Of a stretch of DNA of 64,000 nt, positions 28,101 through 31,100 are shown in pieces. This DNA is from Onchidella celtica (Eukaryota; Mollusca; Gastropoda; Systellommatophora; Onchidiidae). The notes below the pieces were generated by a model, which did not search any database, had not been told where the DNA came from, and saw only the letters and a list, made by a program, of their open reading frames with translations. The translations under genes and the position numbers were made by a program. Location: contig OZ007573.1 in assembly GCA_963931925.1 (NCBI GenBank), forward strand, positions 35,322,807-35,386,806. The letters run 5' to 3'. Numbering within the stretch: position 1 is the first letter of the stretch; every line of letters starts with the position of its first letter.

Positions 28101-31100
28101 TTTCTTATTTGTCATGGTACACTAAAAAAAGCCATCAATATACGTGTGTGAGAAAAATAAAAAATCTGTAACAACTTACATCTTCTGGAGATCTTATAAG
28201 TTTCCTGATCTCATCCTGATAAACACTGTTTTCAAAAAACTGTTCTTGCAATGTTTTCCATGGAATAGAACCACTCATCACACCCTGGGGAGAAAAAACA
28301 TAATTGTGAATGAGCATATCTACATCTGGTGACACACCCATGTCTTAGGATATTTACATGAAGAGAAGAGATGTGTGTCAATTTTACAATACTCTTGTTT
28401 TCAAATTGAACTTGAAGCAATCTCTTTGAATAACAATTGCTAATGCCTACCTTCAACTGACATAAATTTATATAAAAGGCATCCACAAAAAAAACCAACA
28501 GTAGGTTAAAAAAAAATAACGTCACTGCTAATAAAATATTTTCATTTTCCATTTCATACAGGAGTGAAAAACCTAATAATTTTGGTTTGTGTAGATATTA
28601 TGTTAAATTTTACATGAAACAATCAATACTAAATCAAATGAACCACTGGTAATTAAAAAGAAAAAAAATTAATTAAGTTTATTGTATATTAGGCAATGTA
28701 AGTTCTAAATATATGTGGAAGAAACATGGCTGTTTTACTTGTTACCTACAGAAGCTTCAGCTGCAAATTATTGCTCATGAAGCAACAGACCTGGCAAGAA
28801 AAGTGAAAATTACCTTATCATGGATTCATCCAGACCTACCTGCGTAAATACACATGATGCAGTGCTCCAGGACAAACATGGTACAAGTGCTATAGGCTTG
28901 GGCCAATTGGTTGCAGCTAGTGAGGCCATCTGGTATACAATCGTACGTGTACATACATGTATGGGATCCCAAGGTAAATGCACACAGGGCCAGCATCATT
29001 GATAGTAACGTCAGGATGGAATGAGAAGGGAGGTAAACTTATGTTGATGATGAAATGCAGGAGAAGTTACTGGATAAATTTTTGGGGGCAATTTTTGACA
29101 GAGATCAAGACTCACAAGGCAAAGACACAAGGTTAACTTCTGACCCACACAACATGCCAAGTAGTGACTTAACCCACTGAATGCGTTTCATTGGTATACT
29201 GGTGACATGCTAGTGTCTCCATCCCTGTTCACTGACAGACCCGTGTGGAGTGCCCTCAAATTTGTTACCATGAGCTCAGGAAGCCAGGGATATGGTATCG
29301 AGGAAATCTGAAGGTTTGGGTTCAAAGAGTTAAACATTTCTGTAGGCCTACAGGTTTATATCTTTTGACAAACTGGTGAAAACTATTTTTTTTTTTTTAC
29401 AAACTTCAAAATTAGAAACCTTTTCATTCTTTATAAGGAAGCCATTTATCACGTGGGTTTTTCACAAAACAAAATGTCCTGTGCCTTCACTGTTACAATG
29501 GTCATTCCCAGCTCATGTACCTGTCCCCTTGTTTCACTCTTTGTGTGCCAACAGCCGATAATTCGCTATTCCGCTGGTTACGTTTGTGCCAATCACTGAA
29601 GTATCAGCGGGCAAGAATGCTAGGCTATTTTGTTTCGGGAAGAAAGAAAAACGGCTTTCTATTCATAAATGTTGCTCTAGTTAGTCTTCATTCATCTCCC
29701 CCACTACTTTCTTCATGTATCGGCAAACATGGAAAAATTCATGGCACACAAAGAGTTAAAAATTGCTCAGGTAATATGGATAAGCTTCACTAGGGTGTGA
29801 TGATTATGATACGTAATGGGACTATATAAGCAGATTGATCAGTTACTTGATTCAAACACCTGTGTTGGCCAGTAAAAATAATGACAATACTGTACAGAAA
29901 TGGGGAAAAAAAAAAGTCACTGTCAAGGCTTGTTGTGTGCAAGTACAAGGAAAACATTAATTTTGTAAAAGGGCTTGGTTGCCTCGCGCTTCAAGGAATT
30001 CAAAAGTCAACTCCTGCATTCCTGCTGAGTGAAATGAAAAGATAAAAAAATGCTCTACCTCTGAGCTCCAGTCTTGAAACATTCATCTCAGCATGTCCTC
30101 TGCTTACAGCTGGGTACAACACATGTACTGTTGCCAAGTGATATGCCAAGGGTTAATAATACGCACAAATATTATGCGCTGTTTCATAAACTGTCTCTTT
30201 TATGAATTTATAATGAACTTGGTTGGCTTCAGTGATATGCACTCTTTCATTTCTTCCTGCACTTGCATACACATTTTGCTCAGGTAGTCCAAGGTTTCCC
30301 ATTGTAATCACGTTTTTACCCTTGGCATACCCTTCTTGCAAAACAGTGTCAAAGAAAAAGGAAAAGAAGCAAAATCCATAATGAAAAAGAAATTAGCTGA
30401 AGTGGCATTTTATAATTGCTTGTTTCTGCTACCTGTGTGAAAATTGTGGACGCAGTTGTCCAGGATAAAAGAGGTATAAGAGAAATTGGCTTTGGCCACA
30501 GGGTGGCGGCTCCACTGGCCATCTGAAATTCTCAAACAATGGCATTGCCTTCAACAAGTGCACATTGCATTTTATGGGTGACATGTGAATTTTTTCACAG
30601 AGAAAATTCTGCACGATGATTCACTATGTAACACTGTGGGAAAAACTATGGATACAAGGAATCCTGGCCTGCTTCATTATTTCCCACTAATTAACTCTCC
30701 AGAGCCTAGCATTCCATATGTGAAACAAATCACATGACACTATTGACACCATAGAAAGAGATGATAACCTCTACCTAGTCTGGGACAAAATAATTTTTCT
30801 GGGATGTTTTGTTGTTGTTCTTCTTCTTTCATAGTTAGCACGTCTAGAAGACGATTCCCCCAACTGCACCACCATATGCGACTCAACGTCGCTCCTCTGA
30901 GGCCAAAAGCAGGGTAAAACCTTCATAGATGTTAAGACCATTTAAAAATATCTTAGTTGTGTAAAATCTTTTGTATATATATAATAACTCTGGTATAAAT
31001 ATCTCTTGGTTTCCAGATTGTGCACAGAAATACAACCCGCACTTTAGTTACAATGGTAGCTGCAACGGATAATTATGTTCTTTAATTCATTGTCGAAATT

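Follow-up and report, generated by a model that had tools for sequence, protein, structure and literature searches.

An old tandem duplication of an active-site exon, probably kept as an alternative exon pair, in ABHD18 of the gastropod Onchidella celtica

Duplicated exons that are spliced in a mutually exclusive way are well known, and tandem exon pairs have been defined by similar length, reading frame, splice sites and homology (PMC5740500, in its accessible part). One such pair lies in coq-2. According to the accessible text of PMC7434440, an e exon with Leu and Ser and an a exon with Phe and Ala are mutually exclusive in this gene and remodel the active site of the enzyme; the pair is present in C. 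elegans and in those helminths, annelids and molluscs that make rhodoquinone, and RNA-seq supports it in annelids and molluscs. A paper of 2025 described ABHD18 as the cardiolipin lipase of flies and mice, functionally like yeast Cld1; it deacylates cardiolipin in the mitochondria of mouse and fly and discriminates between cardiolipin species (PMC12173737, accessible text).

No second version of exon 8 is described for ABHD18 in the accessible text of PMC12173737. The preliminary description of the present locus knew of no alternative exon 8 in ABHD18, and none was found in the accessible portion of the open-access literature. In two human tandem-exon studies, "ABHD" is absent from the main text of PMC9741552, and "ABHD18" and "C4orf29" are absent from that of PMC5740500. 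The accessible part of an Octopus paper treats Abhd18 as a candidate reference gene only (PMC10230085), and that of a human splicing study records AT events for C4orf29, which we take to mean alternative terminators (PMC6634061). Relative to that literature, such a pair in ABHD18 would be new.

The window (the whole stretch of O. celtica DNA analysed here, 64,000 nucleotides) holds a complete ABHD18 gene on its minus strand, with GT-AG introns throughout. The gene has 11 coding exons, exon 8 being present in two versions, and its product is 641 aa long with either version. Its parts are as follows:

25144..36307, minus strand: ABHD18 gene, coding span (ATG at 36307, TGA at 25146-25144)
36216..36307, minus strand: exon 1 (coding part)
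35058..35142, minus strand: exon 2
34587..34687, minus strand: exon 3
33840..33921, minus strand: exon 4
33462..33546, minus strand: exon 5
32359..32386, minus strand: exon 6
31871..32009, minus strand: exon 7, ending GVSMGGH, with the presumed catalytic serine (GXSXG)
30433..30522, minus strand: exon 8a, the alternative version, with a weak donor (CAG/GTAGCA)
28840..28929, minus strand: exon 8b, the family-typical version, with a strong donor (CAG/GTAGGT)
28180..28284, minus strand: exon 9
25949..26952, minus strand: exon 10, with the presumed catalytic Asp (QDAYIP) and His (GHVGA)
25144..25258, minus strand: exon 11 (coding part and stop codon)

The spliced product matched the Pfam profile for ABHD18 (PF09752) over positions 1-351 of 351, with 494 bits when 8b was included and 480.3 bits when 8a was included; the curated cut-off is 21 bits, and the profile is not wholly specific, since the cut-off is exceeded in 3 of 14 control prokaryotes too. 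We take GVSMGG in exon 7 to be the GXSXG nucleophile motif of alpha/beta hydrolases, with its catalytic serine, and, from general knowledge of the fold, QDAYIP and GHVGA in exon 10 to contain the catalytic Asp and His. The gene is like the ABHD18 of PMC12173737, as far as the accessible text of that paper describes it, in being a full-length family member with a GXSXG elbow and the whole PF09752 profile.

When the 43 contigs of the genome (1.14 Gb) were searched with PF09752, 10 candidates were scored and 4 matches were obtained at E 0.001. All 4 lie at the ABHD18 locus; they include exon 8b and lack exon 8a. No second ABHD18 gene was present among the candidates scored genome-wide. A retrocopy that might record exon use was sought and a candidate rejected: of 5 matches, 4 fell within the locus; the remaining one (E 0.0129, 39% identity, 3 stops) was apparently due to chance, and its neighbouring sequence does not continue the gene. 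Sequence comparison with solved structures gave a best E of 0.33. Bacterial/archaeal and viral collections were each searched with two peptide patterns taken from outside exon 8; among the 66 and 71 matches no relative was confirmed, and neither Rfam at gathering scores nor a tRNA scan gave a match in the window.

Several other features share the window with ABHD18. Intron 7 of the gene contains a tandem duplication at 31216-31328 (60-base unit, 1.9 copies, 100% matches) and, at 31464-31664, an element with 23-base inverted ends (96% complementary, near CAGGGGTCACCAAACT), which to us resembles a hAT-type MITE. On the plus strand, a single open frame at 10842-15746 encodes 1,634 residues with an NHL repeat match of 28.9 bits, a RING match below cut-off and a very long N-terminal part, and is TRIM-NHL-like. 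A second plus-strand frame, at 44196-44861 (221 residues), matched DUF6451 (PF20049) with 57.8 bits and is, by resemblance, probably the tail of a LINE reverse transcriptase. Three dispersed copies of a repeat of about 1 kb, 70-97% alike per piece, lie at 41174-42096, 51858-52932 and 60273-61363; the open frame at 52615-53127 had no Pfam match.

The two versions of exon 8 are separated by 1,503 bases. The preliminary description had proposed two intact 90-bp blocks, and its coordinates proved exact for both: each lies on the minus strand and is 90 bp long, in phase 0-0, free of stops and bounded by AG and GT, with CAG before and GT after. Its count of 21 shared residues of 30 was off by one; the two peptides agree at 22 of 30 positions and the two blocks at 59 of 90 bases, the 31 differences being distributed as 8, 6 and 17 over codon positions 1, 2 and 3. 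The placement of exon 8 directly after the nucleophile elbow was borne out, as exon 7 ends in GVSMGGH and both blocks join it in frame, as they do exon 9. The reading frame is open in all four isoforms (8a, 8b, both, neither).

The homology of 8a and 8b is far beyond chance. In the window, a tblastn search with one copy recovered the other with E = 1.8e-12, the next best match having E 0.47; genome-wide, E was 2.5e-7 and the 2 candidates scored were 8a and 8b themselves; a third copy was found neither in the window (none with E < 0.4) nor among the candidates scored in the genome. Taken alone, each copy matched positions 188-217 of PF09752, 8a with 30.4 bits (E 2.9e-7, cut-off 21) and 8b with 42.7 bits (E 5.2e-11). 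Like known mutually exclusive pairs, 8a and 8b are neighbouring internal exons of the same length and phase, with GT-AG introns, homologous and stop-free.

Exon 8b is the ordinary, family-typical version. Residues of 8b were replaced one by one with those of 8a and scored on PF09752 in a 51-residue context. Four changes accounted for most of the cost (L4G, in which Gly replaces the Leu favoured by the family, 5.6 bits; C18L, 2.7; V27I, 1.6; N8L, 1.5), and the remaining four cost no more than 0.5 bits each; the single costs sum to 13.0 bits, as compared to a full difference of 13.1 bits. Exon 8a has therefore retained most of the residues preferred by the family and departs from them mainly at L4G and C18L. 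As a control, 20 stop-free versions with 8 replaced residues were generated at random and scored on the family profile. Their scores ranged from 56.9 to 69.0; one of the 20 (69.0) lay above 8a (68.9), and another scored 68.6, which suggests that 8a fits the profile better than most drift would leave it, though not dramatically so.

The splice sites of the pair had been described as good. The description stands for the AG and GT borders of both exons and for the strong 8b donor; it has to be toned down for the 8a donor, which is weak, and for the two acceptors, both of which are poor in pyrimidines. Approximate donor scores, computed with a donor matrix, were 10.8 for 8b (CAG/GTAGGT), 5.1 for 8a (CAG/GTAGCA) and -1.5 for exon 5 (ACT/GTATCC at 33462), the weakest donor of the gene. 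The acceptors of the exon 8 pair have pyrimidines at 9 and 8 of 17 positions, the fewest of 11 acceptors, the other nine having 11-14 of 17. A weak 8a donor and pyrimidine-poor acceptors would suit default use of 8b and regulated use of 8a.

The age of the duplication was judged from the sequence around the exons. Similarity ends at the exon borders, and the flanks are 30-38% identical over 30 and 50 bases. The introns were compared for traces of a shared origin. The best alignment scored 182 against a shuffle mean of 214 and was equalled or surpassed in 83 of 100 shuffles; for the downstream sequence this was so in 100 of 100. Alignments of the introns no better than shuffles indicate that the duplication is old. 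One short stretch between the two exons may be a remnant of a longer original unit:

30281..30300, minus strand: candidate relict of exon 7 (its 3' end, 17 of 20 bases alike), located between 8a and 8b

Had a single unit of about 1.6 kb been copied, running from the end of exon 7 through the intron to exon 8, the stretch would be expected 17 bases from where it lies. In ungapped comparison with mononucleotide shuffles, a match as good arose in 1 of 300 close to the expected diagonal and in 0 of 60 at any position; in gapped comparison, 10 of 300 dinucleotide shuffles did as well. Its identification as a relict of exon 7 is suggestive only. If true, the copy of exon 7 would have decayed while the copy of exon 8 kept its frame and splice sites, which would make the case stronger.

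Signs of purifying selection on both versions, as claimed beforehand, were recovered by likelihood and by simulation. The pairwise omega of 8a and 8b was 0.158 by maximum likelihood, on 30 codons within one gene of one genome; twice the log-likelihood difference was 13.3 against omega 1 and 5.0 against omega 0.5, values below 0.5 being favoured. In a two-branch model, making 8a neutral cost 2.6-3.8 lnL units relative to the best setting with 8a constrained and the same omega for 8b, a moderate preference for a constrained 8a. Simulations were conditioned on 59 of 90 identical bases, and the outcome sought was a stop-free 8a sharing 22 residues or more with 8b. When 8a was neutral and 8b under constraint, it was seen in 0 of 1,496 runs (401, 370, 389 and 336 runs at four omegas), and with a single neutral branch in 0 of 1,647. 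With both exons constrained, it was seen in a fraction of 0.78 of 9 runs at omega 0.02, 0.24 of 292 at 0.05, 0.048 of 562 at 0.1 and 0.003 of 324 at 0.2. The simulations favour strong constraint, a result that depends on a simple model of uniform mutation without indels, and the likelihood figures are the more cautious ones. Together, likelihood, simulation and the weaker profile control favour constraint on both versions.

These figures bear most directly on the explanation that 8a is a dying or dead copy, one that was long used and lately lost its use, or that is spliced in as noise. Its weak donor (GTAGCA) and pyrimidine-poor acceptor are what such an exon might show, as are the 5.6 bits lost to Gly in place of the family-favoured Leu and the one random version in 20 that fits the profile better. 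Against this stands an exon that, at 34% base divergence, has acquired no stop and no indel and has both splice dinucleotides intact, besides the preference for omega below 0.5 and the empty count of neutral simulations. Nor does a weak donor mark an exon as dead, since that of exon 5 scores lower still, yet exon 5 is needed for the whole-profile match. A recent end to the constraint on 8a is compatible with the data, because they come from one genome only. We regard a dying 8a as unlikely on balance.

How 8a and 8b would be kept apart is a separate matter; not every known pair needs a mechanism against joint inclusion. Joint inclusion and joint skipping are both in frame, so neither the reading frame nor nonsense-mediated decay can enforce exclusivity; in this ABHD18 differs from the 20 genes (71%) of one set with validated pairs that are frame-incompatible (PMC5740500, accessible part). 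No RNA pairing beyond that of shuffles was found among 15 pairs of intron flanks of about 200 bases (at best, 4 of 60 shuffles were as strong). As to other exclusion mechanisms, the intron between the exons is not short (1,503 bases), and no donor with a U12 look was seen. Repression by a splicing factor would be the likeliest enforcer of the choice.

The same observations allow 8a to be read as a cassette exon, sometimes joined with 8b to give a duplicated insert of 30 residues, perhaps in an inactive or regulatory form of the protein: the joint product is in frame and stop-free, and no forbidding mechanism was found among the flanks compared. The residue-by-residue preservation of the segment, however, is what exchange needs and not what an insert needs, and a second core strand inserted into the hydrolase fold should break it. 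The comparable COQ2 pair, moreover, is one of a group for which exclusive splicing has been reported (PMC7434440, accessible part). We consider a cassette exon quite improbable. That the assembly is at fault, or has set two alleles next to each other, can hardly be the explanation: the copies lie within one contig of 64.9 Mb, they differ at 31 of 90 bases and their introns show no similarity above that of shuffles, a divergence far greater than alleles would have.

As a positive control, the coq-2 pair was located in the same genome. A UbiA gene on C6 is COQ2, scoring 311.1 and 299.2 bits with either exon on TIGR01474, the 4-hydroxybenzoate octaprenyltransferase model (cut-off 275.45). Its two exon versions share one phase and are separated by 3,700 bases:

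C6:33839535-33839665: COQ2 e-type exon, upstream, 131 bp, starting LTLNWG and ending YSHQ (Leu, Ser)
C6:33843366-33843499: COQ2 a-type exon, downstream, 134 bp, starting FTFNYG and ending YAHQ (Phe, Ala)

By the sequence of these exons, the animal carries the published rhodoquinone-type coq-2 exon pair, and the e-type exon fits a rhodoquinone-making animal. The ABHD18 pair has in common with coq-2 6a/6e a mitochondrial enzyme, an alternative exon at the active site and the presence of the family-typical version alongside. In both genes here, the alternative version lies upstream and its donor is further from consensus (judged by eye for COQ2), and the profile cost of the alternative exon is 11.9 bits in COQ2 and 13.7 bits in ABHD18. 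The acceptors differ: those of COQ2, with 13 and 12 of 17 pyrimidines, are not poor, whereas those of the exon 8 pair are. The enzymes and their folds also differ. According to the accessible text of PMC7434440, each coq-2 exon has been removed in C. elegans and the switch followed in RNA-seq, and the coq-2 residue changes recur across phyla; the ABHD18 pair, in contrast, is described here from genome sequence, and the changes in 8a are seen in one genome. The COQ2 parallel is an analogy and holds no evidence of co-regulation of ABHD18.

Our preferred reading is that two exons at the active site of ABHD18 stem from an old tandem duplication and have probably been kept as alternatives, most likely mutually exclusive ones. 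The order of events would be as follows: a tandem duplication doubled exon 8, possibly along with the end of exon 7; selection then kept both copies as alternative, most likely mutually exclusive, exons. An mRNA containing 8b would yield ordinary ABHD18, and one containing 8a the same enzyme with an altered segment of 30 residues directly after the loop of the catalytic serine. From the alpha/beta-hydrolase fold, the exon 8 segment would supply the helix that backs the nucleophile and, after it, the following core strand with its loop. The swapped piece contains neither the catalytic serine, which exon 7 encodes, nor the presumed Asp and His of exon 10, and so both forms should be active hydrolases. 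L4G and C18L could alter the acyl pocket or the surroundings of the oxyanion hole while leaving the triad in place, and the swap would then tune these parts of the enzyme, for example which cardiolipin species are cut. The inclusion of 8a, its exclusivity with 8b and any change in specificity are what we infer from sequence.

A bolder extension, which we hold to be a long shot, is that 8a serves as an oxygen- or tissue-regulated switch of a cardiolipin lipase, in step with the coq-2 e-exon, so that inner-membrane quinone and cardiolipin chemistry would be retooled together when rhodoquinone-using animals go anaerobic. The preferred reading itself would carry its own consequences. The basis on which ABHD18 chooses between cardiolipin species is not stated in the accessible part of PMC12173737, and an exon pair that swaps 30 residues beside the nucleophile would give a ready-made comparison for that choice. 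If the reading is true, ABHD18 would be another mitochondrial enzyme, after coq-2, with an active site chosen by splicing, in an animal that has the rhodoquinone-type coq-2 exon.
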